A stretch of 48,435 nucleotides of DNA from Caryophanales bacterium (GTDB lineage Bacteria; Bacillota; Bacilli; Paenibacillales; CANHCR01), in NCBI GenBank assembly GCA_947459205.1, contig CANHCR010000017.1, positions 1 through 48,435 on the forward strand, given 5' to 3'. Under the pieces are notes generated by a model. That model was given only the letters and a program-made list of their open reading frames with translations, searched no databases and was not told the DNA's origin. This document shows, piece after piece, positions 15,989 through 46,773 of the stretch. Positions within the stretch are counted from its first letter, which is position 1. The number at the start of each line of letters is the position of its first letter. The translations under genes and the position numbers were made by a program.

Positions 15989-16017
15989 TTTTCACCAGTA
16001 ATCGGTCGTACACTTTA

Positions 16018-17565
16018 CTATTTTCGTTGGATGACTACTTCTTTCGTTTGTGCTTTCCATTTGACTTGAGCATCAATGAGTTTGAATGTTGCACGTGCAG
16101 GCACGTACGTGACTCCATTTTTGTTGACTACTTTCATCCCCAAAAACTTCTTGTTACCGTCCAAATACACCGATTTGCTATCATGCGGCATCACAATTTT
16201 CTTGCCCTCATCAAACAACTCTACCTGTTTCGTTTGCGAGTTCCATGCTACTTTAGCGTCAAAATTCGCAGCTGCACTTCGTAAAGGTACCATCGATGTG
16301 CCGTTCACAATGTACGGTTGTGGATCGGAAGGAATACGAATGTCATACGGAACCATGACAAACGCAGCCGTTTGGCGCGTCATGTGCAAATCATTGCGTA
16401 AAATATCATATGCAAGGGAAGCCGCGTTCATCGAACGCATCATTTTACGAGGTCTCATGTCTTCATCGACAATGATCGCATTCGGTCCTACTGCAATTTG
16501 ATTTGCTACTACTGGACCATTCAAATTCCATTTTTCTTCTTCGATGATGACTTTGATTGATTTCAATTCCTCATTAACTGCAATATTGGCTTTCGGTGCA
16601 AGGAACAATTCATATTTTGCTTTACGCGTATTGAACTGCTCATCCACATATAAATCAACTTTCAAGGATGAATTAGGGTCAAGTTCCGTTGCATTCAGGG
16701 CAAACTCGGGATCTTCTTTTAAATTTTTATCAAGTTCATCATGAGCGCTCGTTACCATTTCCAAAATAGAGTCCACAATTTGTGTTTTTTCTGCTTTCAT
16801 GTCGGCTAACATTTGCTCAGCTGTTGTTGTGTCTTCTTCCATTTGCACCGTATAAATCGGTGCAATTAAATCGAATAATTGATCAATCAAAGCGTTAAGC
16901 CCGTCTTTATCCGCAATAATATTTGCCAAAAATTGCAGTACGTAATCAGCCGCTTCGCTCGCTTTCATCTCTGCTGTCACATGTTTTAGATTCAGCAATT
17001 CGGAGTTAATCTCAATGGTTGCATCCTGAACATCAATCGTATTCGGATTTGGCAATTGTTTCACTACGTAGTTCATTAGTGCATCGACAATCGAATCATA
17101 GGATTGCATCAGTTTTTTTGAAGCTTCTTCGTTCAAACCTGAGGTATCTTTATTGATTCCGCCCATGCCTAGCGTGCGGAATACGATTGGTTCACCGGCA
17201 CCGTCCAATTTGACGACCAATTGCTCATCATTCATCGAAACTTGAAATGGAACCGAGCCTTTACTGACTTCGATTGTTCCTTCCATCGACATTTTATTTG
17301 TATCTTCGACGCGCACTGAACGCATTACAATTTTTGCATTCTTGAACAATTGCATCATCGCTTGCTCTTCTGCATGATCTTCATCACGAGTAGTTTGTGG
17401 AACATAATCTAGTGCAAGCGAAATACTTGTCGTCCCCTCGTATGACTTTAAATCCGGATTATATAGCACCTTCGACATGTCTACACCCAAAATTGACTGA
17501 CAACCTGCAACGAACGCCATCACAAAAGCCAAACTGAACATCCACCATGCACGTTTTTTAATCAC
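16018..17565 (-). CDS. Lipoprotein with copper-amine-oxidase-like stalk domain
   Basis: A 515-aa predicted lipoprotein. Starting from GTG 17565, five bases after AAGGTGG, the protein opens MIKKRAWWMFSLAFVMAFVAGC with a good lipobox (VAGC). The central 300 residues are charged, helix-rich and unrecognised. The C-terminal 110 residues contain two half-repeats of the stalk fold (PYIVNGTSMVPLRSAAANF, KVAWNSQTKQV; GVTYVPARATFKLIDAQVKW), a domain common on Paenibacillus surface proteins. The gene starts 53 bases after the lectin gene stop with no terminator between, so the two are probably cotranscribed. No enzyme activity is implied by the stalk domain; a role in the surface amylolytic complex is inferred from context. 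Confidence 0.8.
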   Translation of the reverse strand: MIKKRAWWMFSLAFVMAFVAGCQSILGVDMSKVLYNPDLKSYEGTTSISLALDYVPQTTRDEDHAEEQAMMQLFKNAKIVMRSVRVEDTNKMSMEGTIEVSKGSVPFQVSMNDEQLVVKLDGAGEPIVFRTLGMGGINKDTSGLNEEASKKLMQSYDSIVDALMNYVVKQLPNPNTIDVQDATIEINSELLNLKHVTAEMKASEAADYVLQFLANIIADKDGLNALIDQLFDLIAPIYTVQMEEDTTTAEQMLADMKAEKTQIVDSILEMVTSAHDELDKNLKEDPEFALNATELDPNSSLKVDLYVDEQFNTRKAKYELFLAPKANIAVNEELKSIKVIIEEEKWNLNGPVVANQIAVGPNAIIVDEDMRPRKMMRSMNAASLAYDILRNDLHMTRQTAAFVMVPYDIRIPSDPQPYIVNGTSMVPLRSAAANFDAKVAWNSQTKQVELFDEGKKIVMPHDSKSVYLDGNKKFLGMKVVNKNGVTYVPARATFKLIDAQVKWKAQTKEVVIQRK

Positions 17566-17618
17566 AAAGACCACCTTCTCATCAGAAATAATTTTTGTAA
17601 ATTCATTATACACCAAAT

Positions 17619-19841
17619 TTACTCAACTACACGCATGATTTCTGAATAATTCCGATGAGTAGGAGGCACATCATGCCATACCGTTTTTCCAGAAATGGTG
17701 TTTGCGCTCAATTTTCGTTTGAACAACGCATTCATGATTTTTACAGTTTCCAATCTAGAAACTTTCAATGTATCGCGTTTCGTTTGAGCAGTCGCCGTAT
17801 TCGCTAACCACGAGACTTCACGAACGGCTTGCTTAAATCCATCAGTTTGGATGTGCTTCTTTTGTAGCAAACGTTGAATCACCATTCTCATTTCAAGACG
17901 AGTTAACGGACGGTTCGGTGCAAAGTTGCCTTTAAGGTCAGCACTCATGATTCGATGTGTGTGAACCGTTTCAATCTCGCGGTACATCCAATTTTGCATA
18001 CTCACGTCGACAAAGAGTGATTTCGCTCCGCTGCGCGTAGATCTTTCGTTTGTTTGTTGCATTTCAGTAAGTCGAACAATTGCCGCAGCCAATTCTCCGC
18101 GTGTAATCGCTTGTTGCGGTTTAAACAGCCCATCGCGGTAACCGTACATGTAAGCAATTCTCGGTGCGGCCTCAACGTTCAGCAATACTTCTGCTGGCGC
18201 TGACTCATAATCTCCTTCTTTGACAATAAAAGTGAAACGATCTTTACCAACAAAACCCTTATCGGAAATGTATTGGTAAGAGCCGTTTGGATTTAAAGTC
18301 AATGTACCGCTTGAGACTGATTCGACGATTGAAAATTTCAGAGATGATCGCAAACGATTAGTTGGCGCATAGAGAAGCATGTTTTCGTAACGAACAGCAG
18401 AAAGTACTTGTTCGAAACGGCTTAATGCATGAATAGGTTTGGGTGAGATGCTAATTTGAACAAGGACAGGAGAGCTGTTGCCAATCCCGTCGTTTGCGAT
18501 TACATAGAAACGGTCGTTCCCTTTCGATTCTTCATTTGCAATGTAACGAAATGTTCCAGTGAACTCATTCAACACGACGTTACCTTTGAGTGGCGCGGAA
18601 TGAACGGCAAATGACAATTCGTCATTATTTTTATCAAGACCCTTCATGATTCCATCTACCCCATCACCCGCAACCACTTTTACCTGTTGCGGCTCCAAAA
18701 CAGGCAATTCATTCGCGTTCAAGAGATTCAATGACTGCACCGACTCGTCTGATAGTAGTTTGCCGTCACTAACCTTCACTTTAAATGAATCCGCACCCTC
18801 ATAGCGATGATGTGCTGTGTAAACAAATGATCCTGTTTCATTATTCAGTTGTAGCGTACCATGTTTAGGTAACTCAGTAACGAAAAATTTGAGCGTATCA
18901 TTTTCAATATCATTTGCCACAATCTTGCCATTAACAAATCGCATTCCAACCTCATTCGTCCAATTCCCCGCCTCGACAGTAGGTTTTGTATTAATCGACA
19001 ACGAATTAGCAGAACCGCCTAACTGTATTTTCATAACATCATCCAATGGAATTCCGTGTTCATAATATCGGTTGTCAAAAAACAGTTTTCCGACCTTATG
19101 ACTTCCGTAAAATTTACCCGTAGCCGAAGTAAATCCAATATGAATCTCTGGTTGTTTCATGATTGTGTCAAGTCGGAATGAAGGCAGTTGTAATTGCGGG
19201 CTAGCCGGTCTTTTGCTATCACCAGCAACACGCACCTCCATGATTGAACGAGCGCCGTCGTACTCAATCCAAACGTGACGGAGTGCACCATCGTCCAGCA
19301 CGATTCCCTGTTGGTCTAGTTCTCCGATTCCCGTGATCGCCAGCGGTTTGCTGAGATCGCCATTCGCATTGATCGCGATATGGTTGCCATCTTTATCACC
19401 ATAAAGTGTTAGGTTATGAAAGGTATCAAATTCAACCGCCACACTGTTTCGCACCCCATGATAGCCGATACCGCCACCATTCTTGCCGGGCTCGTACGCT
19501 TGATCGGAAATGATAAACATCAAGCCATCGGCACCTCGCAACCCAGTATCACTAATCTTCATCGTGAAATAAGCGCTGAACGAGCGCGTTTTCGAGATGT
19601 CTAACGCTTCGCGATAAAAAGCGCTACCCGCAACATAAGGGACGGCTGGCGTCAATCTTAAGTAACCAGCCTCACTACCAGAATCCTGAACAGAAGCCGT
19701 CCCCTTCATAATCAAATCACTCGACTTAAATCCGTCCAACTTCACCTGAATTTCTGATGGTGGCAGTGCAGCGGCTTGGTTGACTGAAATGAATGCAAAA
19801 AAGACTGCCACTGCAAAAAATATGATGTTCAATTTTTGCAT
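17619..19841 (-). CDS. S-layer-anchored L-type (legume) lectin-like protein
   Basis: A 740-aa surface protein. After the signal peptide (cut near NQAAA), residues about 30-260 look like a legume/L-type lectin domain: FTMKISDTGLRGADGLMFII, GGGIGYHGVRNSVAVEFDTF, DGNHIAIN, HVWIEYDG, IHIGFTSATG, the usual order of lectin strands. Three cadherin/Big_9-like Ig domains follow, each ending like GTLQLNNETGSFVYT, GNVVLNEFTGTFRYI or GTLTLNPNGSYQYI. The C-terminus carries SLH domains (GYRDGLFKPQQAITRGELAAA; FVDVSMQNWMYREIE...GNFAPNRPLTRLEM) for binding cell-wall polysaccharide. ATG 19841 is 8 bases after AAGGAG; GTG 19850 overlaps the ribosome site. Sugar specificity is unknown; neighbours suggest alpha-glucans. 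Confidence 0.88.
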   Translation of the reverse strand: MQKLNIIFFAVAVFFAFISVNQAAALPPSEIQVKLDGFKSSDLIMKGTASVQDSGSEAGYLRLTPAVPYVAGSAFYREALDISKTRSFSAYFTMKISDTGLRGADGLMFIISDQAYEPGKNGGGIGYHGVRNSVAVEFDTFHNLTLYGDKDGNHIAINANGDLSKPLAITGIGELDQQGIVLDDGALRHVWIEYDGARSIMEVRVAGDSKRPASPQLQLPSFRLDTIMKQPEIHIGFTSATGKFYGSHKVGKLFFDNRYYEHGIPLDDVMKIQLGGSANSLSINTKPTVEAGNWTNEVGMRFVNGKIVANDIENDTLKFFVTELPKHGTLQLNNETGSFVYTAHHRYEGADSFKVKVSDGKLLSDESVQSLNLLNANELPVLEPQQVKVVAGDGVDGIMKGLDKNNDELSFAVHSAPLKGNVVLNEFTGTFRYIANEESKGNDRFYVIANDGIGNSSPVLVQISISPKPIHALSRFEQVLSAVRYENMLLYAPTNRLRSSLKFSIVESVSSGTLTLNPNGSYQYISDKGFVGKDRFTFIVKEGDYESAPAEVLLNVEAAPRIAYMYGYRDGLFKPQQAITRGELAAAIVRLTEMQQTNERSTRSGAKSLFVDVSMQNWMYREIETVHTHRIMSADLKGNFAPNRPLTRLEMRMVIQRLLQKKHIQTDGFKQAVREVSWLANTATAQTKRDTLKVSRLETVKIMNALFKRKLSANTISGKTVWHDVPPTHRNYSEIMRVVE

Positions 19842-19981
19842 CGCAGACACTCCTTCATCTTGATCTCATTGATAAGTGTATGTAGTCTCCACGATAAATT
19901 GAATAGCAAAAGATACACATTAACAGGATTGTCACAATTATTTTCACAAGATGTTCACAAATACTATACAAAAGTAACTAT

Positions 19982-22936
19982 TTAGTTTGGACGATACTGA
20001 ACTGCTGCTCCAAGAGAATCTGCAATGAAGCGAAGTGGCACGAATGTCGTTCCACGGATAATGACTGGCGGTGCATCTAAATTCAACGTTTTTCCATTCA
20101 ATCGAGCCGCACGACTGCCAACCTGCATCGACAAATCAATTCCCTCGCTCTTCGCTGACAGCGTCTTCGTGCGCAAATTCCAATTGACATTGACACCGAA
20201 CGATTCAAACAACACCTTAAACGGCACGACGATTCGTCCATTGACTCGGCGCGGTTGCATCGGCGTGTTTAGACGCTTACCGTTAAAAAATATTTGGTTT
20301 CCAACGACCAGCACGACATCTTTCGAAGAGACTGCATCGTTACTCTGATTGTTCGACGATGTGTTATTGGATGAAGAATTTACATTCGAAGTACTTGGAG
20401 CGCCGCTAACGATTTTACCCGCATTGCCATTCGCGTTCGGCAGGTAAGTGTATACACCCGCTGCAAAACTGTAATTCTTTCCGGAGTTGCTGTCCCAAAG
20501 ACCCGAACCGTTATTAAAACAAGCTGTAAGTCCATCGGCATTGCCAATCGGAACGGTTATTTTGTGATAGCCGTCGACCTCAGATGCGGCCATCGGTACA
20601 CCTGGCACATCCGTCCAGCTGCCGTCATTCGGGCGATAATGAATGTGCGGGATCGCGAACCCTTTTTTATAATAAATGGTCACAGATTTCACATTAGTGT
20701 TTGTTCCGTTCTCTTGATTCGCAGGCGGTTTCGGCTCCGGCTCCGGCTCCGGCTCAGGCGTTGGCACTACCGGTTGTGACGAAGTCGTCGGTTTGCCCGA
20801 TTTAATCGTACCCGGGCCACCATTCGCAGCTGGCACAAACGTCCAAACACCTGGCTTAAACGCATAATTCTGCTTGTTGTTCGAATCCCACTTAGAACCT
20901 CCATCGTTGAAACATGCCTCTAACTGCGACTGCTCACCGATATTGGTCGTAAGTTTGTAATATCCTGGCACCTCAGATCCACTCATCGCACGTCCAGGCG
21001 TAGCCGTCCATTCGCCGTTCGCTTGACGAAAATGAATATGCGGTTTCGCAAACCCTTTTTTATAATAAATCGTAACCGTGTTGGCGCTTTCCGTATTTGT
21101 TTTGCCGCTGATTGTTGCAGCTCCAGTCGAGCGATTGCCGGCCCCATCAACCGCCACAATCCGATAGGCATACGTCGTTTCTGGACTTAATTCCTTGTCA
21201 GTAAATGTGGTGCCCTCCACCGTATCAATCAGCACATTGTTGCGATACACTTCATAGCCGGAAATACCGAGATTGTCTGTAGCCGCTGTCCAAGTGAGGC
21301 TGATCGTACTGTCTGTTTTGCCGCTAACTGCAAGGTTTTGCGGGCTACTTGGTGCCACGCTATCCTGTACGGCCGCCTCTTTTTGCACATAAATCGAGAG
21401 CGATCGACTGTTCACCGGGAACGTCGCCCAACCATCAGCACCGATGCGAATCAAATCGGAGCGATTGCCTGTCATATCGTGCCAGCGCTCACCAGCATGT
21501 TGTTTGCCGACAAACATCTTTTTCGAACCTTGCTGTCCGTCGGAAATGACCGTCGCTAACCCAGAAATCGGCCTGCCTACTTCGCCTTCGCGCGTCCAAC
21601 CGACGACATCTTCATCGTTCAAATAATCGTGTTGCACCCCGTACGCATAGTCCTTGCGCGCTTTCAGAATCGGGTCGATTTTCGAGCGCAGTGCTGGCAA
21701 GTTATTGTTCGGAATACCGTAGTAATCGCCGTAAAAGACGCACGGCACACCCTCTTTTCGAGTGAGGATGAACGCATACGATTGCGGCTTGAACCACTCT
21801 TTGACCCATGATTGTAGCGCCTGACCTGGCTGCGTGTCATGATTGTCGACAAAGGTAATCGAATGATTCGGATGCAAATCGGTCAATGAGCCGTCGAGCA
21901 ACTGTCTCATGTCATAGTTGCCGTTCGCGTTTGAGGCTTTTTCAAAACGATGATGCAAATCGACGTCCAACACGGACATGGTTTTGTTGACCTTTGTCAA
22001 ATAGTTGGCCAGTAAGTCGGTGTTGCCACTCCAATATTCGCCAAACGTAAATAGCGGTTTGCCGGTCGCTTTGCGCACATTGGTCAGCCAATTTTTCATA
22101 AAATCGAACTTGATATGTTTCACCGCATCCAAGCGGAATCCGTCGAGATCGAGTTCTTTGACGAGCCATGTGCCCCAGTTCGTCATTTCGTTGACGACGT
22201 CAGGATTGTCGAAATCCAAATCGGCAAACATCAAGTAGTCGTAGTTGCCGTTTTCTTTGTCGACTTCGACGTCCCACGATTTGCCTTGAAATTTAAATAA
22301 CTTTTGTTGATTGCCTTGTCCGTCATAATCGACGCCGTTGAAATGGCTGGCATTCCATTGAAAAGATGAATGGTTGGAGCCGCGCCCTGGGAACCAGAAT
22401 CGTGTGTATGAGGTAATTTGGTACGCGCCGGACCGTTCGACGTTGCGGTTCTTTTTGTCGACCTCAATCGCATTCACTTGATCAGTGCCGTCCGCACCTG
22501 CTTTGTGATTCATAACGATGTCTGCGAATACCTGAATTTGATTGGATTTCAGTGTTGAAATCGCTTCTTTCAGTTCCCATTTTGTGCCGTATTTCGTGCG
22601 TACGCCACCTTTTTGATCGAATTCGCCGAGATCGTACCAATCGTAGACGCCGTAGCCCACGTCATTGATCGTTTGCCCTTTGTATGCGGGCGGGAGCCAG
22701 ATGGCGTTCACACCGACGTTGCGGAGCGCACCGGCCTCTGACTGTAAGCGTCGCCAATGATTGCCGTCGGCAGGCAAATACCACTCAAAATATTGCATAA
22801 CCGTCATGTTATCTTTGCTTGCTGCGACCGCCACCATCGGCTTGCTGACAGGGGTGCTAGGAAGTATGGGTAGGCATACGGCGAGCAAAGACATAATAAG
22901 GACTACCGAAATGATACGCTGAATGAAGACTGACAT
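19982..22936 (-). CDS. Secreted alpha-amylase, GH13_5-like, with FN3, two CBM25 and stalk domain
   Basis: A 984-aa endo-alpha-amylase of the Bacillus liquefying type. After the signal peptide comes the GH13 barrel (about 42-525): MQYFEWYLP start, region I DIVMNH, region II GFRLDAVKH (nucleophile Asp), region III FGEYW (acid/base Glu), region IV FVDNHD. Then one FN3 (about 535-620), two CBM25-like domains, each starting TIYYKKGFA, separated by a PEPEPEPEPKPP linker, and a stalk domain closely similar to the one on the starch-binding scaffold (TTFVPLRFIADSLGAAVQY versus STFVPLRFVGESLGVTVQY). ATG 22936 follows GAGGAGGG. A cre site and an extended -10 lie just upstream. First gene of the cluster; no clear terminator follows, so readthrough into the lectin gene 140 bases on is possible. 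Confidence 0.95.
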   Translation of the reverse strand: MSVFIQRIISVVLIMSLLAVCLPILPSTPVSKPMVAVAASKDNMTVMQYFEWYLPADGNHWRRLQSEAGALRNVGVNAIWLPPAYKGQTINDVGYGVYDWYDLGEFDQKGGVRTKYGTKWELKEAISTLKSNQIQVFADIVMNHKAGADGTDQVNAIEVDKKNRNVERSGAYQITSYTRFWFPGRGSNHSSFQWNASHFNGVDYDGQGNQQKLFKFQGKSWDVEVDKENGNYDYLMFADLDFDNPDVVNEMTNWGTWLVKELDLDGFRLDAVKHIKFDFMKNWLTNVRKATGKPLFTFGEYWSGNTDLLANYLTKVNKTMSVLDVDLHHRFEKASNANGNYDMRQLLDGSLTDLHPNHSITFVDNHDTQPGQALQSWVKEWFKPQSYAFILTRKEGVPCVFYGDYYGIPNNNLPALRSKIDPILKARKDYAYGVQHDYLNDEDVVGWTREGEVGRPISGLATVISDGQQGSKKMFVGKQHAGERWHDMTGNRSDLIRIGADGWATFPVNSRSLSIYVQKEAAVQDSVAPSSPQNLAVSGKTDSTISLTWTAATDNLGISGYEVYRNNVLIDTVEGTTFTDKELSPETTYAYRIVAVDGAGNRSTGAATISGKTNTESANTVTIYYKKGFAKPHIHFRQANGEWTATPGRAMSGSEVPGYYKLTTNIGEQSQLEACFNDGGSKWDSNNKQNYAFKPGVWTFVPAANGGPGTIKSGKPTTSSQPVVPTPEPEPEPEPKPPANQENGTNTNVKSVTIYYKKGFAIPHIHYRPNDGSWTDVPGVPMAASEVDGYHKITVPIGNADGLTACFNNGSGLWDSNSGKNYSFAAGVYTYLPNANGNAGKIVSGAPSTSNVNSSSNNTSSNNQSNDAVSSKDVVLVVGNQIFFNGKRLNTPMQPRRVNGRIVVPFKVLFESFGVNVNWNLRTKTLSAKSEGIDLSMQVGSRAARLNGKTLNLDAPPVIIRGTTFVPLRFIADSLGAAVQYRPN

Positions 22937-22958
22937 GAAAAACCCTCCTCTTCCAATT

Positions 22959-22972
22959 TGCAAACGCTTTCA
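22959..22972. promoter_or_regulatory. cre site (CcpA) at the second amylase
   Basis: On the minus strand TGAAAGCGTTTGCA is an excellent match to the cre consensus. It sits between the likely -10 box and the ribosome binding site, where bound CcpA would block transcription. Confidence 0.78.
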
Positions 22973-35323: not shown

Positions 35324-38300
35324 CTACTGTAAGGTTGTCACACTCAACGCAGTCGTTGGTACGGACAAGTTTTTCTCTGCATCGACTGCACGAATCGTGA
35401 TACTGCTGGTCGTATTAGCTGTCATATTTTTAAATGTATAGTTGTTCACAATCCCTGCCACGGTAGCAACATACGTACCGTTTCGATATATGTTGTAATG
35501 TGTAACTGCTACGTTGTCCGATGCCGGCGACCAAGTAATTCGGAAACCTGTAGATGTGATGAGACTGCTGTTTACTGTCGTCGGTGCCGTTGGTGCGATC
35601 GGATCTACCGTGTACGTTGTTGCAGCGTTCAAGACGATCGACTGATCAGAACGATTTCCGGCATTGTCAATCGCTTGGACACGGATTTGATGCGACAAGT
35701 TAAACGGTAATCCGCTAAACGTATAGTTAGTACCCAGTACAGTTTGAACATACACACCATTACGATAAACGTTGTATTTGGCAACAACTTGATTGTCCGT
35801 GGATGCGTTCCAACTCACACGGAATCCGGTCTTCGTTACATTACTTAAAGTAAGACCTGTTGGAATCGTCGGCGCAATCCCATCGAGCGTCGTTGCACTG
35901 ATTGCATCTGTCATACCCGAACGATTTTTCGCGGCATCAACTGCCTGAAGACGAATCGAATACGCTGTGCTACTGGCTAAACCAAGGAACTCAGTCTCTG
36001 CACGCGGTACTGTTTTTACATACACACCGTTCAAGAAAACATTGTATCCAGTAACACCGACATTGTCTGTCGATGGCGTCCATGTCACGAAAATTTTATC
36101 TTTTGTCACCTGTGTCGCAGTGACGTTTGTCGGAACTGTTGGCGGTGTCATGTCAATCGTTGTCACATTACGCAAAGCCTTCGCCGAGCGATTATTTGAA
36201 GTATCAACTGCCATCACTTCAATATTATAGCTCTGCAATTCAGTCAGCCCCGCAAAGCGGTACGTTGTGGTTGTCACAGTATCGATCAGTACTCCGTCGC
36301 GATAAATATTGTATCCTTTTACAGCCACGTTATCTGTAGATGCTGTCCAGTTCAATCGGAAGCCTGTCGCAGACAACAATGCAACTGTTAAATTAGAAGG
36401 TGTTGTCGGCGGGATGATATCAGGCGTAGATACACTAATCGGTGCGCTCAATGCCGAGACATTGTTTTTCTTGTCAAAAGCCAACACTTGAACTGAGAAA
36501 TTCGCACCGGAAGTGAGGCCGAACAATTCGACTTCGAGCACATTGGCAGGCAATGTGCGCGTAACGACGCCGTTCACAAATACTCGATAGCCGGTCACCG
36601 CGACGTTGTCTGTCGACGCATTCCAACTGACTTTAAACCCGGTTGGACGGGCATTGCTGACCGCTACACCAGAAGGCACAGTCGGTGCAAGTCGATCACC
36701 GCCGAGCACCGCCGGAATGAGCGTATCAACTGGTTGCAATGCAATCGTCGTTTCTACCGTTTGATTACTGTTCAAATACATCGTGTACGTGGCGCCACCG
36801 GCAATATCCAGAATATTGCTCAAAGCGCTAACACCGGCTACTTGATTGTTCGTGTTTCGGCCCCAGGCAACGACCGTTCCATTCGATTTCAGGGCAATCG
36901 AATGTTGCCCGCCCGCAGCGATGGCACTGACGCCGTTCAAAGTACTCGGCACGTTCGTTTGTCCGGACTCGTTCGCGCCCCAGGCAACGACCGTTCCGTC
37001 CGCTTTAAGCGCCAAGGAATGGTTGCCGTTGGCGGCAATCGCCACGACGCCACTCAAGCCTTCTGGAATCGTCACTTGACCGTTTGTATTCAAGCCCCAG
37101 CCAACGACCGTTCCGTCCGCTTTTAATGCTAAAGAGTGGAATGTGCCAGCGGCAATCGCCACGACATTTTCTAAATCGCTTGGTACAGTAGCGACGGCGG
37201 CGTTCGTCGTTTCATTGCCGTTAAAACCCCAAGCAATGACCGTGCTGTCATAGCGGAGAGCCAATGAATGGTATCCGCCAGCAGCAATCGCGACGATATC
37301 TTTGAGACCGTTAGGAACATTCGTTTGCCCGTCCCCGTTGCGACCCCATGCGACGACTGTGCCGTTCGTTTTCAACGCAAGATTATGGAAGCGACCTGCC
37401 TTCACAGCGACAACATCGCTCAGATTTTGCGGTTTGCCCAACTGATTCATCGTGTTGGAGCCCCACTCTTCAACCGTTCCATTCCCCATGGTTGCAACAC
37501 CATGCTGCCAACCAGACGAAATGAGACGCACGTCATCAGCGCTCGGACGATACATATAGGTGTTATTACTGAGCGAACCTTCAACCCCATCGACAACCGC
37601 ACTCACTTGCGCATAATACAGCTGATCCCATTTCCACGCGGAGGTCGTGAACGTGTACGTTCGCGAGGTCAATCCGGAAGCCACCAACTGTCCGTTCAAA
37701 TACACATTATACGTCGTCGCACCCTCAAACTCATCCCAACCGAGATCAATCGTGTTGCCCGAAATTTGCGCCGTCGGGATGACGACACGTGCCCATTTTG
37801 CATACAACGTCAGGTCACTAGAGACTGTAGTCCAGTTCAAGGCGCCTGCGCGATATTCGACGAACGGTGTGGTCAACGCAACATCCGTAAACCAACCTTT
37901 GAACACATAGTTCGCTGCACGCCAAGGCCACGCATATTCAGATGAATAACCACGATAGAGCGTAACTCTACCTTGTGTGTCCGCTTGGATTGGAGAAAGC
38001 GCTGTTCCACCATTGGACTCAAACGAGACCGTTCGCCCAGAAGTCATTTTATACAAAAGATTTTGACTATCCGGCATTAACCAGATGCTGTCCCCCGCGA
38101 AGATGAGGCGGTTAAACGGTTTCGTACCGACAAGATCATTATTAATTACGGTTGTCTTATTGTAAGCCGATAATTGACCGTTCGAAATCCGATAACGCAA
38201 GAGCGCACTCTGCATATTAAAGTTTGATTGTCCGTAAGACACCCAAATATCGCGACCATCATATGTCGCATCGATAATCCCGTAAGATGTCGGTCCATGC

Positions 38301-41300
38301 TCGATATGAATGGCAGATGCCCAGTTGCTCACTTCTGATACGGTGCCATCGGCAACGGTAATCTTCACCAGCGGCTTAGCCGTGGAATTCGGTACCATCC
38401 AAATGTGCGAGCCGTCGAACAAGGCCGACACGTAAAACGTCAAAGAATTTAAAGCGGTCCGTTCGGAATAGGTCGTCATGCTGTGCGTAACCGTATTGAA
38501 CTTGACAATCGAACCGTTATTATGGGCCGCTGGAATAAGCCAAATGTTAAGTCCATCATAAACGCCGTGTGAGTAGTTTGCAGCATATTCCGCAGCTTGC
38601 ACACTCGCCGGCCAACTCGTATATTTGTTGATTGCATTGGTGTTCGGATCAATCCGCAAAAATCCGTTCGCATGACTGTAGAAACGGTCCGATTTCGGGA
38701 ACAGCCAAACATACTGACCGTCATAAATGCCGCCGGCAAAATATAAATAGCAACTCGACAGGCAACCCGGAATCGTTGTAATCGTCACGATTTCATGCGT
38801 GGTAGCATTCACTTTATAGATTTTGTTGGTACCGTCAGGAATAAGCCAGATACTCGTACCGTCATAAACCGCACCGGAAAAATCGTCAATCCATGTTTCA
38901 TTGATTTCAAGGTCGATGGTGGTCATTGTACCGTTCGCTTTGTTCACTTTCAGCAGTTGATCAATTCGCCCTTGCGGAACGAACCAGACATGCGTGCCGG
39001 TATCCACCGCATCGACAAAACTACTTTGCCATATACTCATCCCTGTGGATGTCAAAATATTGTAAGACGCCAACGTCGGTTCAGTAATTTGACTGTACGA
39101 AGTCGTAAAGCGGCTATACGAATTACCGTTTTGCAAAATAATTCCGTTGGTCGATAACAACCACTTCGCGTATAGCGTAAACCCGGCACTGACCGGCGTA
39201 GAAAAGTCGTAAGCGTTGTTTAATTCCGCATCGCTATACCATCCGACAAACTGGTACCCCGCACGAGTCGGAGCGGTCGGTTCGCTGACTGTTGCACCCG
39301 CTGCCAGTAATTGAGTCGTGACTGCCGACCCACCACGTGTATCAAACGTAACGCTAGCCGTCCATTTTGCATAGAGAGTGAGCGGCCCGTTGACTGCTGT
39401 AGAGAATGAATGTGCGCTCGTCAGTCCACTATCGGAGAACCAACCGCCAAATGTAAATCCACTGCGTGTCGGGTTCGCAGGTTGCGTCACCGTTTGGCCG
39501 AACGCGCGCGCTTGCGAGGCGACAGCACTGCCGCCGTTCGAGTTGAACGCCACTGTAAATGTCGGTGTCAATTTAATGACGCGATCCGCCTCATATGGAA
39601 TCACCCATCCGGCGCGACCATCGTAGAGAAGATCGGTAAATGCATCTCCGAACGGATTCGAATTGAAACCACTCGGCCAACTGTTGAACGTACTCATCGA
39701 GCCATCGCTAACATCGACACGGACCAAACAACTGTCGCGGGCGGCAACCCACAAATACGTTCCGTCAAAAACACTTCCTGTCGTACCCAAATATGCGCCG
39801 ATGCTGCAGTTGTTCGGCCAATTTGTAAAAGCGGTCATCATGCCGTTGGTCGGATTCAATTTGACGAGCGCATTGTGATCGCTAAGCGAACCTGCTCCAG
39901 GTACAAGCCATATATTTTGCCCGTCATAAGCAGATGAAGCAAATTTCATCGCAGAATAGTCGCTCGGCCATTGGTTGTAACCGGTAAACGAGCCTGTCTG
40001 TGTATTCATTTTATACACCCGATTCAATGGATGAGACAACCCTGCCGGCGTCAGCCAGAGATGAATACCGTCATATAAGACGCTTGAGAACATCGGCAAA
40101 TTAGTAAAACTTGCAATCTCACTCGGTAAGGCAAAAGACTTCACGGAGTTATCCGCCGGATCGAAGCGCAAAATCGAATTTTCATAATGCGGTGCCAACC
40201 ACACATAGCGACCGTCAAACACGCCGCCGGCAAAACGATTGCTCGATTCGAATGAAGTATAACTGACCGAGCTCATCGAACCGGTGGAGGCATCCACTTT
40301 TACGATTTGGTTCGCGTTGGACGGAATCAACCAAACATGTGTGCCGTCAAATACACCGCCGGCAAAATTGTTGCCGAATCCGGACCAAGTAAAGCCCGCC
40401 GGCCAGCTACTGTATGCCGTCATCACACCTGTCGATTTGTTCATTTTCACCAACGATTTCGAACTCTTGTTCGGTATAAGCCACAAGTTCGTGCCATCGT
40501 CAACTGCACCAGTGAAATCATCAGTACCTTTCGTGAACCCGCTCGGCCAACTGTTAAACCCGCTCGCCGTCAGATTGACAAGTGGCGCCGGCGTCACCAC
40601 AGTGCCGGTGAAACTCGTTCCATTTTGCAAATAAAATTCGTTCCATTTCGCATAAATCGCCACATCATCCGTAACTGGCGTGCTGAAGTCATACGCTCCT
40701 TGGGAGGTATACCATCCTTGGAATGTGTACCCTGCTTTCGTCGGTTGCGTCGGTTGCGTTGCCGTCTGCCCGTAGGTTAACATTTGCGTCGCCACCGAAC
40801 CTGCGCCATTCGTATGGAACATCACATTGAACTTGCGCTCGCTGATTTTAACCAGCAAATTGTTGTCCTCCGGGATAAGCCACAAATTGGCGCCATCATA
40901 CGTTGCCCCGGCGAATCCACTCGAAATGGTACCGCCATGTATGTTACTAAACGCACTCATCGCTCCGGTCGTCGGATGAATACGAATCATCGCATAGTTG
41001 TTCACGTTCGGAATGAGCCAAACGTGCGCACCGTCATAGAAGGCTCCTTTAAATTTGTCAAAGGTCGATTTCGTGTAACCGGTCGGCCAACTGCTGTATC
41101 CGGTCATTTCGCCCGACTGTACATCGACTTTGACGACGATTGTTGTATGATCTGCCGGCGCCAACCAGAGGTGTGTACCGTCAAACGTACCGCCGGCAAA
41201 TCCGGTAAGCGTCGTTTTCGTAAAACCTGCCGGCCAAGTGCCGTGTGACGTCATCGAACCGTCTGCCGGGTTGAATTTCACCAATGAACTTCCGGAATCC

Positions 41301-44300
41301 GGAATGAGCCAGATATGCGATCCGTCATAGATAGCTCCGGAGAAATTATCGGAGTAATAGTTTGCAAGGGAAGGCCAATCGCTGTATGACGTCATCGCGC
41401 CATCAGCCGGATTTATGCGAATGATGCGATTTGCACCCGTGCCGGTCGGAATCATCCATACATAGCGACCGTCATACACGCCGCTCACAAACGTGTTCAT
41501 CGTCGATGACTGCTTGTTAAAGCCGGACGGCCATCCGTCGTAATAGGTAATTGCCTCAGTCGTGACATTCACTTTCACAACTTTCTCTGCTTGTTGCGGA
41601 ATCAACCATACGTTTTCACCGTCAAATACACCGGCACTGAACTTTGGATTGCCGGAATTGTTAATCAAAAGATGATAATGCTTTAGTTCGCCTGTTGCTT
41701 CATTCACTCTGACTAAATACGGGTGGTCCATCGGCACAAGCCATAAATACGTTCCATCCGACACGGCAGCGGAAAAACGATCATCGGAACCGTAAGTAAA
41801 CGGCAACGTGTAACTCGTCATTGACAAATGACTGAGTGGCGTCAATCCGCTGACTCCGATTGAAAAACCGAATCCGTCTTGTACCGTTGTGCCGCTTGTC
41901 GTCCATTTTGCATACAACGTTGTATTGGACGTTACAGGTGAACTGAAATCAAACGGTTGCGTCAAACCGGCGTTGGTAAACCAACCGATAAACGTGTGCG
42001 CATTTTTCGTCGGCGCAGTCGGAGCCGTCGCCAAACTGCCGATATCGAGCGTTTGCGTCGCAATCGAGGTGGTGCTGTTTGTGACAAACGTAACGGACAC
42101 TTGCCATTTTGCATACAGTGTCAAGTCATTCGGTACCGGTGCGCTAAAGTTATAAGGAGTTGTCAACGAGACATCACTAAACCACCCGGAAAATACGAAA
42201 CCGGAGCGTGTCGGTGCACTCGGTTGAGCCACCGCAACATCAGGATTGACATACGCAGTTGACACTGCGCTGCCGCCGTTACTATTGAATTGCACGGCAT
42301 AGCGTGTGCTTGCTTTCACTAACTGGCTGGCATGATTCGGGATGAGCCAAATATTCGTACCGTCATAGACGGCACCACCCGCTTTCGGACCCGGAGACCA
42401 ATCACTATAGGCATACCCGCCGGAACCGCCTGTCGGCCAACCTTGATGAGAAGTCATCGCGCCCGTTGCAGGATTGACTTGCACCAAATGATTACTGCGG
42501 TCCGGGATGAGCCAAATGCTATTACCGTCGTAAACAGCCCCACCAAAGTCTGAACCGGTCGAAGTTTTGTTGTATCCTGCCGGCCACGAATTATAGCCCG
42601 TCATTGTTCCGGTGAATCGGTTCACTTTCACGACCATATTGCCGTTCGACGGCGCCAGCCACAAGTTGTCTCCTTCAATTACACCGCCGGCAAAGGCGTA
42701 CGTGTTGTGCACAAAACCGGCCGGCCACGAATTGTATCCAACCATCGCACCGGTCGCGGGATCGAAACGAACCAAAATCCCGCTTTGCGAATAGACAAAC
42801 ACTTTCGGGATGAGCCAAATATACGTGCCGTCAAACACGCCGCCCTTGAATGAACCTGCGTATTTTGTGAAACCAGCCGGCCACGAATTATAGCCGACCA
42901 TTGCGCCGGTCGATGGCGTGACGCGAATGATGCGGTCCGCATCCTCCGGAATGAGCCATACATAGGTACCGTCGTAGACGGCCCCGGAAAATGCATCGGA
43001 ACCTTTTGTAAATCCACTCGGCCACGTGTTGTAGCCGGTCATTACCCCGGTCGTTGCGTGTACGCGAATGACACGGTCCGCATTGTACGGAGCCAGCCAA
43101 ATGTACGTGCCGTCGTACGCACCCCCTGAGAACGCCTCAGCACCTTTTGTGTAACCGCTCGGCCACGAGGAAAAACCGGTCATCGCGCCAGTCGACGGAT
43201 TGACGCGCACGACTTGATTACCGGTCGATGGAACCATCCAGATGTTTGTACCGTCGTATACGCCGCCGAAAAACGAATCGAAGCCTTTCGTGAATCCGCT
43301 CGGCCACGTATTGTAGCCAGTCATTAACGGATTATTTACCGATTTGGGGTTGGCAACGATACCGCTGTAGCCGTATCCGTCTTGACCGAACACGCCGTTC
43401 GGACGCCATTTCGCGTAGAGAGTCAAGTCACTGTTGACCGGTGTCGCAAAGGAAAACGCTTGGGTGAGCGCACTGTTGGTATACCAGCCTTCCAACACAT
43501 AGTTGCTACGTGTGACCGCCGGTGCAGTTGCGAGTTGATTCGGCAAAACCAGTTGACTGCTTGCAGCATTTCCGCCATTTGAAACGAAACTGACCGTATA
43601 GGCGACCCACTTCGCATAGAGTGTCAGATTGCCGGTTACCGGTGCGGAAAAACTATACGCACTCGTTAAGCCCGCGTCGGTAAACCATCCCATGAATGCG
43701 TAACCGCTTTTGCTCGGCGCAGCCGGCTCAGTCGCCGTTTGTCCGGCGCGTACCGTTTCACTGTTCACGAGACTTCCACCGTTCTCCTCGTAATCTACGC
43801 TCAACGTGCGATACACTTCGACTTTTGTACTTAATGAAGCTGTGGCCCCGCTATATTCGACATAGTAGTTTGCCGGGTTGTTGTCATTCGTTCCGGTACA
43901 CGTACCTAAATTTAAAAACCCGCATCCATACGTATAGGTACTTGTATTGTTTTCCTTACGGTCAACCCAACCCCCGGAAACATACTCAACGAAATGTTCA
44001 CTGGAAGTGTTGTTCGGCTCACCGTTCGCCCAACGTGCGAATTGATTCTGCGGGACCGAAACATTCGGCGAATTTCCGTCGGAAAAATTTGCACCGCGTT
44101 CCGCTGCAGGTCCCGTTACCCAATAGTATTTCCCTTCCGAAGCGCCTTGGTTAGCAAACAACGTCGAACCGACGGCACTATTGATTCTAGAAAATTCATC
44201 GCTACCGCCCAACCAACCTTGCACGCCGAAAAAGCGCGCCAGGTGATTGTCTTCTGCCTGCGTATTTAATGTCGCCAAGTAGCCGCTCAAAACCCCCGCC

Positions 44301-44887
44301 GTCTGACGACCTTCGGCTGCTGAACGGGCATTATTCCAAGTCATTTTAGTATTAACGACTTCGTAATAATTAACTTGTCCGGAGGACAACTCGAGCGGAA
44401 TCGCATGGCCCAACGTAAAACGGACGGTACGCACCGCATTGTTCGTTGAAGTCGTCGTATAACGAACCGTACGCAACAATGCTTGCCAGTTCGCCGGTGT
44501 CGTCGAACCATTAAAGCGCAACACTCCCGTCGATGTGTTGAATGCAGTCACACTCACGCCGGACGGCAAACTGCCCGTATACGACAAAGAATCCTTGCCC
44601 GAGTCAAAATTGGTGCTGATGACGACCGTAGCACCATTTATGCTCGATGACGAGTTGATTGGCGCAACATTCGTCTCCACCGTCAAACTCGGCGCAATCG
44701 CTGCACCGGATGCCGCCACCGAATTTTCTACAATATTGGCATTGATGTATTGCGTCACACTTGGTGATGTGTTGGCCAACGCTTCGTAATCCTCTAATTG
44801 GAAAATCCCGCTTGGCACAACACCGCTTACAAGCAATAAAAATGCAAGTAGCGTTGCAAAAGTCCCTCTCATTTTCACTCTTGCCAT
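35324..44887 (-). CDS. Giant secreted protein: C-type lectin, four 7-repeat propeller blocks, RCC1 block, FN3 domains
   Basis: A 3187-aa secreted protein with an uninterrupted frame. Layout by residue: signal peptide (1-38); an Ig/cadherin-like part (60-165); C-type-lectin-like domain (172-346; WNNARSAAE, WLGGSD, FARWANGEPNN, HFVEYVSGGWVD); two InlB-type B repeats (362-500); repeat block 1 (522-861); two B repeats; block 2 (1023-1350); one B repeat; block 3 (1441-1776); two B repeats; block 4 (1939-2284); one B repeat; an FN3-like domain; seven RCC1 repeats (2452-2722); five FN3 (2731-3187). Each block has seven repeats of about 47 aa with the core YDGTxIWLIPxxxxxLVRVNPxTG. I read each as a seven-bladed beta-propeller. 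No SLH, LPXTG or stalk anchor was seen. AAAGGA lies 10 bases before ATG 44887. Function unknown; adhesion or glycan binding is inferred. Confidence 0.93.
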   Translation of the reverse strand: MARVKMRGTFATLLAFLLLVSGVVPSGIFQLEDYEALANTSPSVTQYINANIVENSVAASGAAIAPSLTVETNVAPINSSSSINGATVVISTNFDSGKDSLSYTGSLPSGVSVTAFNTSTGVLRFNGSTTPANWQALLRTVRYTTTSTNNAVRTVRFTLGHAIPLELSSGQVNYYEVVNTKMTWNNARSAAEGRQTAGVLSGYLATLNTQAEDNHLARFFGVQGWLGGSDEFSRINSAVGSTLFANQGASEGKYYWVTGPAAERGANFSDGNSPNVSVPQNQFARWANGEPNNTSSEHFVEYVSGGWVDRKENNTSTYTYGCGFLNLGTCTGTNDNNPANYYVEYSGATASLSTKVEVYRTLSVDYEENGGSLVNSETVRAGQTATEPAAPSKSGYAFMGWFTDAGLTSAYSFSAPVTGNLTLYAKWVAYTVSFVSNGGNAASSQLVLPNQLATAPAVTRSNYVLEGWYTNSALTQAFSFATPVNSDLTLYAKWRPNGVFGQDGYGYSGIVANPKSVNNPLMTGYNTWPSGFTKGFDSFFGGVYDGTNIWMVPSTGNQVVRVNPSTGAMTGFSSWPSGYTKGAEAFSGGAYDGTYIWLAPYNADRVIRVHATTGVMTGYNTWPSGFTKGSDAFSGAVYDGTYVWLIPEDADRIIRVTPSTGAMVGYNSWPAGFTKYAGSFKGGVFDGTYIWLIPKVFVYSQSGILVRFDPATGAMVGYNSWPAGFVHNTYAFAGGVIEGDNLWLAPSNGNMVVKVNRFTGTMTGYNSWPAGYNKTSTGSDFGGAVYDGNSIWLIPDRSNHLVQVNPATGAMTSHQGWPTGGSGGYAYSDWSPGPKAGGAVYDGTNIWLIPNHASQLVKASTRYAVQFNSNGGSAVSTAYVNPDVAVAQPSAPTRSGFVFSGWFSDVSLTTPYNFSAPVPNDLTLYAKWQVSVTFVTNSTTSIATQTLDIGSLATAPTAPTKNAHTFIGWFTNAGLTQPFDFSSPVTSNTTLYAKWTTSGTTVQDGFGFSIGVSGLTPLSHLSMTSYTLPFTYGSDDRFSAAVSDGTYLWLVPMDHPYLVRVNEATGELKHYHLLINNSGNPKFSAGVFDGENVWLIPQQAEKVVKVNVTTEAITYYDGWPSGFNKQSSTMNTFVSGVYDGRYVWMIPTGTGANRIIRINPADGAMTSYSDWPSLANYYSDNFSGAIYDGSHIWLIPDSGSSLVKFNPADGSMTSHGTWPAGFTKTTLTGFAGGTFDGTHLWLAPADHTTIVVKVDVQSGEMTGYSSWPTGYTKSTFDKFKGAFYDGAHVWLIPNVNNYAMIRIHPTTGAMSAFSNIHGGTISSGFAGATYDGANLWLIPEDNNLLVKISERKFNVMFHTNGAGSVATQMLTYGQTATQPTQPTKAGYTFQGWYTSQGAYDFSTPVTDDVAIYAKWNEFYLQNGTSFTGTVVTPAPLVNLTASGFNSWPSGFTKGTDDFTGAVDDGTNLWLIPNKSSKSLVKMNKSTGVMTAYSSWPAGFTWSGFGNNFAGGVFDGTHVWLIPSNANQIVKVDASTGSMSSVSYTSFESSNRFAGGVFDGRYVWLAPHYENSILRFDPADNSVKSFALPSEIASFTNLPMFSSVLYDGIHLWLTPAGLSHPLNRVYKMNTQTGSFTGYNQWPSDYSAMKFASSAYDGQNIWLVPGAGSLSDHNALVKLNPTNGMMTAFTNWPNNCSIGAYLGTTGSVFDGTYLWVAARDSCLVRVDVSDGSMSTFNSWPSGFNSNPFGDAFTDLLYDGRAGWVIPYEADRVIKLTPTFTVAFNSNGGSAVASQARAFGQTVTQPANPTRSGFTFGGWFSDSGLTSAHSFSTAVNGPLTLYAKWTASVTFDTRGGSAVTTQLLAAGATVSEPTAPTRAGYQFVGWYSDAELNNAYDFSTPVSAGFTLYAKWLLSTNGIILQNGNSYSRFTTSYSQITEPTLASYNILTSTGMSIWQSSFVDAVDTGTHVWFVPQGRIDQLLKVNKANGTMTTIDLEINETWIDDFSGAVYDGTSIWLIPDGTNKIYKVNATTHEIVTITTIPGCLSSCYLYFAGGIYDGQYVWLFPKSDRFYSHANGFLRIDPNTNAINKYTSWPASVQAAEYAANYSHGVYDGLNIWLIPAAHNNGSIVKFNTVTHSMTTYSERTALNSLTFYVSALFDGSHIWMVPNSTAKPLVKITVADGTVSEVSNWASAIHIEHGPTSYGIIDATYDGRDIWVSYGQSNFNMQSALLRYRISNGQLSAYNKTTVINNDLVGTKPFNRLIFAGDSIWLMPDSQNLLYKMTSGRTVSFESNGGTALSPIQADTQGRVTLYRGYSSEYAWPWRAANYVFKGWFTDVALTTPFVEYRAGALNWTTVSSDLTLYAKWARVVIPTAQISGNTIDLGWDEFEGATTYNVYLNGQLVASGLTSRTYTFTTSAWKWDQLYYAQVSAVVDGVEGSLSNNTYMYRPSADDVRLISSGWQHGVATMGNGTVEEWGSNTMNQLGKPQNLSDVVAVKAGRFHNLALKTNGTVVAWGRNGDGQTNVPNGLKDIVAIAAGGYHSLALRYDSTVIAWGFNGNETTNAAVATVPSDLENVVAIAAGTFHSLALKADGTVVGWGLNTNGQVTIPEGLSGVVAIAANGNHSLALKADGTVVAWGANESGQTNVPSTLNGVSAIAAGGQHSIALKSNGTVVAWGRNTNNQVAGVSALSNILDIAGGATYTMYLNSNQTVETTIALQPVDTLIPAVLGGDRLAPTVPSGVAVSNARPTGFKVSWNASTDNVAVTGYRVFVNGVVTRTLPANVLEVELFGLTSGANFSVQVLAFDKKNNVSALSAPISVSTPDIIPPTTPSNLTVALLSATGFRLNWTASTDNVAVKGYNIYRDGVLIDTVTTTTYRFAGLTELQSYNIEVMAVDTSNNRSAKALRNVTTIDMTPPTVPTNVTATQVTKDKIFVTWTPSTDNVGVTGYNVFLNGVYVKTVPRAETEFLGLASSTAYSIRLQAVDAAKNRSGMTDAISATTLDGIAPTIPTGLTLSNVTKTGFRVSWNASTDNQVVAKYNVYRNGVYVQTVLGTNYTFSGLPFNLSHQIRVQAIDNAGNRSDQSIVLNAATTYTVDPIAPTAPTTVNSSLITSTGFRITWSPASDNVAVTHYNIYRNGTYVATVAGIVNNYTFKNMTANTTSSITIRAVDAEKNLSVPTTALSVTTLQ
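36698..37534 (-). repeat. RCC1-like seven-repeat block (fifth propeller)
   Basis: Seven units, most of about 40 aa, with the core VVAIAAGxxHSLALKxDGTVVAWGxNxxGQ (residues 2452 to about 2722 plus linker). This is a bacterial RCC1 propeller; the last unit is degenerate. Confidence 0.85.
38036..39073 (-). repeat. Propeller block 4: seven YDG-IWLIP repeats
   Basis: Residues 1939-2284, the most diverged block: repeat cores include SGAVYDGTSIWLIP, AGGIYDGQYVWLFP, SHGVYDGLNIWLIP, SALFDGSHIWMVP and LIFAGDSIWLMP. Confidence 0.82.
39560..40567 (-). repeat. Propeller block 3: seven YDG-IWLIP repeats
   Basis: Residues 1441-1776. Seven cores can be counted, from TGAVDDGTNLWLIP to TDLLYDGRAGWVIP, each followed by a LVKxNxxTG strand. 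Confidence 0.85.
40838..41821 (-). repeat. Propeller block 2: seven YDG-IWLIP repeats
   Basis: Residues 1023-1350. Seven cores can be counted, from SAAVSDGTYLWLVP to AGATYDGANLWLIP, ending directly in the next B repeat. Confidence 0.85.
42305..43324 (-). repeat. Propeller block 1: seven YDG-IWLIP repeats
   Basis: Residues 522-861. The most regular block: units start MTGYNTWPSGFTKG and contain GGVYDGTNIWMVP or similar, then VVRVNPSTGA; exactly seven are present. Confidence 0.88.
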
Positions 44888-45589: not shown

Positions 45590-45835
45590 TTAAATGGTGT
45601 CATTCTTGACGCGATAAATCAGTCTATAATTTTGATACGTGCGTTCTCTCACTTGCTCATCTTGAATTTCAGGAACCACTCGAACTAATTGCAGAAAATC
45701 AGGAATACGTTCAATTTGATCTACGATCTTGCGAACAAAGATTTTAGCATAATCCTCCGAATCCATTGCGATGAAATTCGCAATGTCATCCAGATCATCG
45801 ATAGCAAGTTGTGACCAGATCAGTTTGAGAGCCAC
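45590..45835 (-). CDS. RelE/ParE-family toxin, C-terminus lost to a frameshift
   Basis: An 81-aa toxin-like protein (LKLIWSQLAIDDLDDIANFI, FVRKIVDQIERIPDF, GTG start 45835, overlapping the antitoxin by 16 bases). It ends ...LIYRVKNDTI-stop. In the next frame the DNA continues TVRIFHYGSQLNP-stop (to 45549), which is the expected end of a ParE toxin (VRIFHGSR-like). A one-base loss in ATT TA(T) ACC would explain the shift. The last beta-strand and basic C-terminal residues are lost, so toxicity is doubtful. Confidence 0.75.
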   Translation of the reverse strand: MALKLIWSQLAIDDLDDIANFIAMDSEDYAKIFVRKIVDQIERIPDFLQLVRVVPEIQDEQVRERTYQNYRLIYRVKNDTI

Positions 45836-46005
45836 TTACCCAAACGCTTCTTGGCTGCTTCATGTTCGATTCCTTCTCCGGCATCTAATTGTTTCAGACC
45901 CGCTTCAATTTTCATTCGAACATACAACTCAGCCATGATTTCTTCCAGCGATACGTTTTCCGGCAAACTTTGAATCAGACGTACTACCTCTTCTCTCGGG
46001 CTCAT
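45820..46005 (-). CDS. Antitoxin of the ParDE/RelBE-like module
   Basis: A 61-aa protein: MSPREEVVRLIQSLPENVSLEEIMAELYVRMKIEAGLKQLDAGEGIEHEAAKKRLGKWLSN in short segments; the GLKQLDAGEGIEHEAAKKRL pattern is typical of antitoxins paired with RelE/ParE toxins. AGGAGA lies before ATG 46005; the upstream open frame from 46146 is rejected. It overlaps the toxin gene by 16 bases, so the pair forms an operon. It appears intact, unlike its toxin. Confidence 0.82.
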   Translation of the reverse strand: MSPREEVVRLIQSLPENVSLEEIMAELYVRMKIEAGLKQLDAGEGIEHEAAKKRLGKWLSN

Positions 46006-46171
46006 GGTAATCTCCTCCGAATCGGAAAAATAATAATCCTTAATTTTATTATACCTAATATTGAATGAGTTGGACTCGAAAAATTCACCTGATTTACAGC
46101 CTTCAAGTTCTCTTTTCCACACCCACGAGCCCCGTGAGCTTATCACTCCAAATGCATAACTTTTTTCGTTT

Positions 46172-46197
46172 GAAAAAAGCAGCCTCTCGGCTGCTTC
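46172..46197 (-). terminator. Rho-independent terminator behind the VapBC-like locus
   Basis: The perfect stem AAGCAGCC / GGCTGCTT with a four-base loop is followed by TTTT on the minus strand. Confidence 0.88.
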
Positions 46198-46198
46198 A

Positions 46199-46538
46199 TT
46201 ATAAAATGTCCTTCATTGACAGTTGATACTGCGTCTCGACAAACTTCATGTCTTGATCTCTCGACACAAGCGTAAACCCGTGTTCTATGGCAGTTGCAAT
46301 GATTAATGCATCTGGCGTTTTGAGTTTTCGCCCTTTGTTTCTCTGTTCTCTTCTCATCGTTCCCGCACGATTGGCGATAGCCGACGTAACTTCCAGGCAT
46401 CGAGAACTATTAAAAAGTTTGATTTGAACCTGCATCTCCTCGGAACGCAATCTGCTCACTACTTCGCATTCGGTAATCATCGAAAAATAGATCGGAATCT
46501 TCTGTTGAGCAGTTTCAAAAATAAAATCCACTAGTCAT
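46199..46538 (-). pseudogene. VapC-like PIN toxin, N-terminus missing and frameshifted
   Basis: The C-terminal 110 residues (DFIFETAQQKIPIYFSMITECEVVSR, then IANRAGTMRREQR, then LKTPDALIIATAIEHG, LVSRDQDM, VETQYQLSMKDIL) are a PIN domain toxin with the DA and D acidic motifs. The expected start is ATG 46538 overlapping the antitoxin stop, but it reads MTSGFYF-stop. The part carrying the first catalytic aspartate (DTN-like motif) is missing, so the protein lacks a key active-site residue. An alternative GTG at 46531 gives only a truncated product. Confidence 0.78.
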
Positions 46539-46539
46539 A

Positions 46540-46773
46540 TCAGTCCCAATCTTCTTCTCTATTTTTTTTGATATCCGCCATCAACTGATGACCTTGATCA
46601 GGTATTAATATGCCTGCCGATGCTATGATGTCATCAATACTATAATCATCCTCAACTTCAATCGTTTTCTTCTGAAAATCAACAACCACTTTGTTTCGAC
46701 TCATATTCATTTTCGAGAAAATACTCCACAACTGCGCATACGTCGCATCATCTAATTATTTAGAGATTGCCAT
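46540..46773 (-). pseudogene. VapB-like antitoxin with a stop at codon 6
   Basis: From ATG 46773 (AAAGGAGA before it) the gene reads MAISK then TAA, then the conserved rest (LDDATYAQLWSIFSKMNMSRNK, ending NREEDWD-stop). The paralogous remnant at 34934-35092 has AAA at this codon, so a single A-to-T change created the stop. Reinitiation at TTG 46731 could give 63 residues without the N-terminus. Confidence 0.83.

Follow-up and report, generated by a model that had tools for sequence, protein, structure and literature searches.

What kind of protein is encoded by a single, very long bacterial gene in which groups of short repeats alternate with spacer domains, and what might such a protein do? 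The window (i.e., the whole 48,435-nt stretch of DNA that was analyzed) is from a Paenibacillus-like bacterium, and it contains an intact ORF on the (−) strand (35324–44887) with an ATG start, an RBS-like AGAAAGG 5′ of it and a predicted product of 3187 aa. This product is a putative giant exported protein, with a leader (Table 1) resembling those present in its paralogs. Neither Pfam nor inspection of the sequence detected an SLH, LPxTG or other anchor after its C-terminal FN3 domains, and Pfam scans found no anchor in the same-genome paralogs; SLH proteins and a sortase are encoded in the genome. The protein is probably either anchored by other means or released into the matrix.

Elsewhere in the window, a cluster on the (−) strand (12213–22963) encodes secreted modular carbohydrate proteins, namely, an alpha-amylase with two CBM25 domains and a CBM25/CBM26/FN3 protein, both ending in Cu_amine_oxidN1, as well as a third protein with a terminal Cu_amine_oxidN1 and an SLH-anchored legume-type lectin. 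These amylase, CBM and lectin genes fit a polysaccharide-oriented organism. Just upstream of the giant gene (45590–46731, (−) strand) lie two toxin genes: one for a ParE-type toxin, which has a small ORF upstream of it, and one for a PIN-domain toxin, accompanied by an ORF for a possible antitoxin.

Domain layout of the 3187-aa protein

The chain was described in an earlier note as holding five propellers, and this count stands: four are of one uncatalogued type and the fifth is an ordinary RCC1 domain (Table 1). Pfam returned no match on the four stretches of the uncatalogued type or on the N-terminal beta-sandwich module, and NCBIfam added only partial B-repeat- and FN3-type matches. As also described, InlB-type B repeats separate the propellers, one or two per spacer; eight stretches exceeded the PF09479 cut-off, with scores ranging from 35.7 to 76.1 bits. 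The RCC1 region scored 168 bits against PF13540 (cut-off, 22) and 149.2 bits against PF25390, just below the cut-off of 150. Of the seven RCC1 repeats claimed, six were delimited by Pfam as RCC1_2 stretches and the seventh was recognized by eye. The five FN3 domains reported at the end of the chain were recovered as five PF00041 stretches, and a sixth one, before the RCC1 domain, had been overlooked.

Table 1. Predicted domains of the 3187-aa protein, from N to C terminus, with their positions in the window
Feature	Position	Strand	Evidence or remarks
Sec-type signal peptide region (residues 1–39)	44771–44887	(−)	Positive N-terminus, hydrophobic core, ALA-N site read from sequence
Beta-sandwich module, cadherin-like by eye (residues ~46–160)	44408–44752	(−)	Conserved along with the lectin-like head; six ORFs of the genome have both
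C-type-lectin-like domain (residues ~168–350), WANGEPNN...GGWVDR	43838–44386	(−)	phmmer versus PDB; Lectin_C match of a paralog
Two InlB-type B repeats (Flg_new / List_Bact_rpt)	43610–43798 and 43409–43600	(−)	PF09479
Propeller 1 (residues 502–868), seven Vgb-like blades, QDGYGYSG and velcro strand before	42284–43384	(−)	Profile, AlphaFold2
Two B repeats after propeller 1	41906–42301	(−)	PF09479
Propeller 2 (residues 1003–1357)	40817–41881	(−)	Seven blades by profile; end-to-end alignment with family
One B repeat after propeller 2	40646–40831	(−)	PF09479
Propeller 3 (residues 1421–1781)	39545–40627	(−)	Seven blades by profile; aligned with family
Two B repeats after propeller 3	39164–39559	(−)	PF09479
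Propeller 4 (residues 1919–2289), most divergent	38021–39133	(−)	Seven blades by profile; AlphaFold2
One B repeat after propeller 4	37796–38032	(−)	PF09479, 35.7 bits
Sixth FN3-like domain, before RCC1 (residues ~2366–2448)	37544–37792	(−)	By eye; lies in the part shared with paralog L036
RCC1 domain, seven repeats by eye (residues ~2451–2714)	36746–37537	(−)	PF13540, 1.7e-50, six stretches
Five C-terminal FN3 domains	35327–36685	(−)	PF00041, five stretches

Blade count and ring closure

An HMM built from the 28 blades of the 3187-aa protein located seven full blades of ~47 aa in each of four regions (residues 535–876, 1034–1365, 1454–1789 and 1953–2297). The blades scored from 33.6 to 78 bits, compared to a best chance score of 2.6 bits in 200 shuffles of the protein, which bears out the claim of 28 repeats in four groups of exactly seven. 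An additional 5.5-bit match at residues 522–533 was rejected as an eighth blade, as it corresponds to the leading strand of propeller 1 (P1).

Structures were predicted with AlphaFold2 for P1, the most conserved propeller, and P4, the most divergent one, and propellers 2 and 3 were assessed by alignment only. The P1 model (single sequence; mean pLDDT of 70, pTM of 0.78) is a closed seven-bladed ring of 28 strands, and the P4 model (six-row alignment; pLDDT of 76.5, pTM of 0.82) likewise has 28 strands, with 1+3 closure. In both models, one leading strand is followed by six blades of four strands each (24 strands) and then by three strands, giving a velcro closure. Specifically, strand D is missing from the last blade of each of the four propellers, which runs straight into a B repeat, and in the two models this fourth strand comes from the N-terminal side. 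The sequence score of the leading strand was clear for P1 and P3 only.

When applied to relatives, the blade profile found seven blades in 9 of 12 other Paenibacillales proteins (four of the 12 come from the genome of the 3187-aa protein) and in one Verrucomicrobia MAG, six in two same-genome paralogs and eight matches in P. pinisoli, the latter aligning as seven blades. When propellers from 13 other proteins were aligned with the four studied here, seven blades stayed in register, save for the shortened row of the paralog L036. QDGFGYSG or a variant precedes most propellers of the family, including that of the Verrucomicrobia MAG. The assignment of the four stretches as seven-bladed beta-propellers is, therefore, supported at the level of sequence and model, with closure of the ring, as proposed earlier, predicted structurally for two of the four and backed by alignment for all four.

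Relationship to virginiamycin B lyase

The nearest solved structure to both models was that of virginiamycin B lyase (Vgb), with a Z score of 31.1 for P1 (rmsd of 2.2 Å over 291 residues; YncE, 27.2) and 26.7 for P4 (next, 24.8). Since many propellers score near those Z values, structure alone is no proof of descent. At the sequence level, the Vgb family PF24684 (curated cut-off, 50 bits) did not match the 3187-aa protein, a direct search of the PDB with propeller 1 gave no match, and searching the PDB with a profile built from 17 propellers produced nothing meaningful. PF24684 did match 2 of the 17 members of the propeller family, the best of them, L042, falling below the cut-off: its full protein matched Vgb_lyase with an E-value of 1.5e-10 and 40.8 bits, i.e., less than the required 50. 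The same relative matched 2z2n (Vgb) with an E-value of 3.6e-6, and its propeller aligns with the family. Moreover, a single comparison of the family profile with ten true Vgb sequences of the order gave probabilities of 72–79% and E-values of 1.5e-5 to 3.4e-5. Based on the structural comparison, the profile comparison and the bridging relative L042, we place the four propellers as a distant and divergent Vgb-like kind, with a fold that is not new, and, as far as sequence and models indicate, they are no Vgb lyase. The earlier note stated that, by eye, the blades do not closely match Kelch, WD40, NHL or YncE. A lack of close matches to known families holds for direct Pfam and PDB sequence hits but not for the fold, the profile comparison and L042, all of which tie the blades to Vgb, a link that the note had overlooked along with the same-genome paralogs.

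Vgb (streptogramin lyase; PF24684; PDB 2z2n, 2z2o and 2z2p) is seven-bladed like the propellers of the 3187-aa protein, and blades of both share the signature DGxxWF/L, then I/VxR/KI/V, then G-I/M and F/Y..P. Identity between them is only 15–17%, and the family consensus has a recurring Trp-Pro where strand D ends, which Vgb lacks. In addition, Vgb is a single-domain enzyme, whereas the window propellers are embedded in a giant exported chain.

With Vgb as the closest fold, the propellers could be enzymes, of the streptogramin-lyase type or related, that act on extracellular polymers or cyclic peptides, and CylK offers a precedent for a Vgb-like propeller with other chemistry at other sites (PMC8916777). 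However, the Glu/His pair at the positions of Vgb E268 and H270 was absent in all 26 in-register window blades (blades 1962 and 2262 are out of register and were left out) and in 80 blades of relatives, and the columns that are invariant across the family hold G, W, P, D and F but neither a conserved His nor a conserved Glu. By comparison, the EPHG motif is invariant in the ten true Vgb sequences of the order, and the title of the 2z2p entry reads "catalytically inactive H270A". Lyase activity is unlikely, given that the catalytic E268 and H270 have no counterpart in the propellers, and we regard an enzymatic function in the broader sense as very improbable, too.

Distribution of the propeller family

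Using a cut-off of E ≤ 1e-15 and scoring five candidates per genome, we found the propeller in 22 of the 395 genomes sampled from the order and, in a class-wide sample of 399 that overlaps the order sample, in two genomes from other orders. This cut-off catches three full propellers of the 3187-aa ORF, the fourth being recovered by BLAST and profile. Each of the ORFs found has one propeller, with several present only in the 3187-aa ORF; no other multi-propeller chain of the Vgb-like kind was found in these two samples, which overlap and comprise about 400 genomes each. Phage and plasmid collections yielded no propeller of this family, and a viral structure search returned only generic propellers. 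The data point to the QDG-YDGxxIWLIP propeller as a domain family that has no entry in Pfam.

Outside the class, locus L020 (2304–3344) on a 6244-base contig of the Verrucomicrobia MAG encodes a propeller that is 42% identical to propeller 1 and has the same QDG motif; this occurrence in another phylum is due either to horizontal transfer or to mis-binning of the contig. Patescibacteria MAGs (L024, L026 and L031) also encode exported proteins, whose YDG..W repeats are distantly similar; in L024, three paralogs lie side by side.

Of eight relatives scanned in other genomes, six have SLH triplets, which suggests that the propeller domain is located on cell surfaces in those species, and in relatives the single propeller follows the signal peptide directly and forms the distal domain. 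Conceivably, the propellers of the 3187-aa protein are mainly mechanical or organizing parts, i.e., stiff discs that, together with B repeats and FN3 domains, would form a long stalk or an S-layer-associated coat presenting the lectin head, without ligands of their own. The regular alternation of propellers with spacer domains, their divergence to about 30–47% identity with the fold kept and the SLH coupling in relatives are all compatible with such a role, but a distal position behind the signal peptide makes poor sense for a pure spacer, and the blade motif is strongly kept across genera (A2 mean column identity of 49%). We, therefore, consider a purely mechanical role unlikely.

Paralogs and origin of the chain

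The propeller is present in five ORFs of the 2.5-Mb genome that holds the 3187-aa gene. Among them, L036 (2023 aa) has the same head and one Vgb-like propeller, along with a weak DUF6273 stretch and one B repeat, and its C-terminal ~1000 residues are 53% identical to residues 2196–3186 of the 3187-aa protein. Given this shared head and C-terminal thousand residues, the 3187-aa protein looks like a version of L036 in which four propellers and B repeats, strung together, take the place of the single propeller. The paralog L035 (G000 contig C32, 416–13681; 4422 aa) comprises two lectin-like modules, one Vgb-like propeller, DUF6273 repeats, a cadherin domain and eleven FN3 domains, and two neighboring paralogs in L057 (G000 contig C36, 4998–10613 and 11674–17061; 1872 and 1796 aa) have the order DUF6273, lectin-like module, cadherin and FN3. 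A 7TMR-DISM histidine kinase gene precedes the giant paralogs of L057. Across the paralogs of this genome, the modules of the 3187-aa protein recur in reshuffled form.

The four propellers are about 30–47% identical to one another (P4, 30–32% to the other three), and a weakly resolved tree does not group them (p-AU of 0.29 for one clade). Given the tree and these identities, neither a recent tandem duplication nor an assembly artefact accounts for them. Blades of the same index are more alike than blades of different index in 6 of 6 propeller pairs, which argues for descent from whole propellers and not for independent blade amplification. Thus, whole propellers appear to have been copied or shuffled into the chain long ago.

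C-type-lectin-like head

The domain described earlier as a C-type-lectin-like domain standing first in the chain was matched by phmmer, over its EPN...W.D stretch, to collectin-11 (E-value of 0.013) and DC-SIGN (0.015–0.05) in the PDB. Aligned to these two proteins, it shows the EPN/QPD and W-D calcium-site motifs, including an EPN-type calcium/mannose motif. Pfam gave no match on this domain, and the copy in L035 had a weak Lectin_C match under the cut-off (E-value of 0.0047). The description is borne out by the motifs, but the match is weak even at its best.

The beta-sandwich and lectin-like module occurs in six ORFs of the genome (4422, 3187, 2403, 2023, 1872 and 1796 aa), its copies being 48–67% identical to that in the 3187-aa protein. 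This spread would accord with an adhesin directed at other bacteria or a host, with the lectin-like domain, diversified among the paralogs, as its sole binding part. We think this quite unlikely: relatives carry the propeller without a detected lectin head, and no diversity-generating retroelement was found next to any copy of the module, reverse-transcriptase hits falling only on contigs C10 and C71.

Proposed role

Our preferred reading, to which we assign a probability of roughly 55%, is that the 3187-aa protein is an exported multivalent glycan- or matrix-binding protein, i.e., a modular surface or matrix adhesin. Glycans or matrix polymers would be bound by the lectin head and by the faces of the propellers, the candidate targets being the matrix made by the organism itself, other cells or a polysaccharide that serves as substrate; the four propellers may give avidity or reach, and the B repeats and FN3 domains may serve as spacers. 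A cell-surface setting is likely, since the same propeller occurs on SLH-anchored proteins in other Paenibacillales. A binding role is also supported by the company of modules, the neighboring carbohydrate-active and lectin genes and the precedent of Bap1/RbmC (see below). On the other side, a propeller of the Vgb-like kind can also act as an enzyme or serve simply as a scaffold, and we know of no extracellular role assigned to the RCC1 domain.

It is possible, if doubtful, that the propellers are non-catalytic Vgb-like lectins in which the Trp-Pro loop of each blade contributes to a ring of glycan sites, the four-propeller chain having up to 28 similar sites and gripping a polysaccharide in a ladder-like manner. 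The Trp-Pro at the end of strand D as a candidate ligand-contact position is a guess.

Comparison with known systems and significance

The adhesins Bap1 and RbmC of V. cholerae are a parallel to the 3187-aa protein, in that they are secreted and modular, with a propeller that binds the exopolysaccharide of the biofilm matrix and other domains facing the environment (PMC10102183). Their domain set appears to differ, with neither a run of four propellers nor InlB B repeats nor an RCC1 domain mentioned for them (PMC10102183). Exported proteins of the VCBS supercluster have a signal sequence, several propellers per chain and immunoglobulin-like and lectin domains (Pereira and Lupas 2021, PMC8023676) and thus resemble the 3187-aa protein in combining several propellers with binding domains in one exported chain. 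However, DxDxDG in the AB loops is typical, though not universal, of VCBS propellers (PMC8023676), and the window blades have YDGT there, with DxDxDG absent from loop AB. With InlB-type B repeat proteins (PF09479/TIGR02543), the 3187-aa protein shares the B repeats, eight of them canonical; unlike in internalin, no leucine-rich head was detected, and the B repeats are spacers between propellers.

The earlier note knew of no described protein with this order of domains, and none was found in the order- and class-level genome samples or the literature searched. The claim is tempered by the same-genome paralogs, which have almost the same module set, and by the multi-propeller VCBS precedents. 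The propeller kind and the exact domain order are new to the literature and genomes searched, and the building blocks are largely known.

The 3187-aa protein and its relatives suggest that an enzyme-type propeller fold is used in giant exported proteins, apparently without catalytic residues. If the propellers do not bind glycans, the protein would be one more large modular surface protein; if they do, the chain would be a natural multivalent binder with exchangeable discs.
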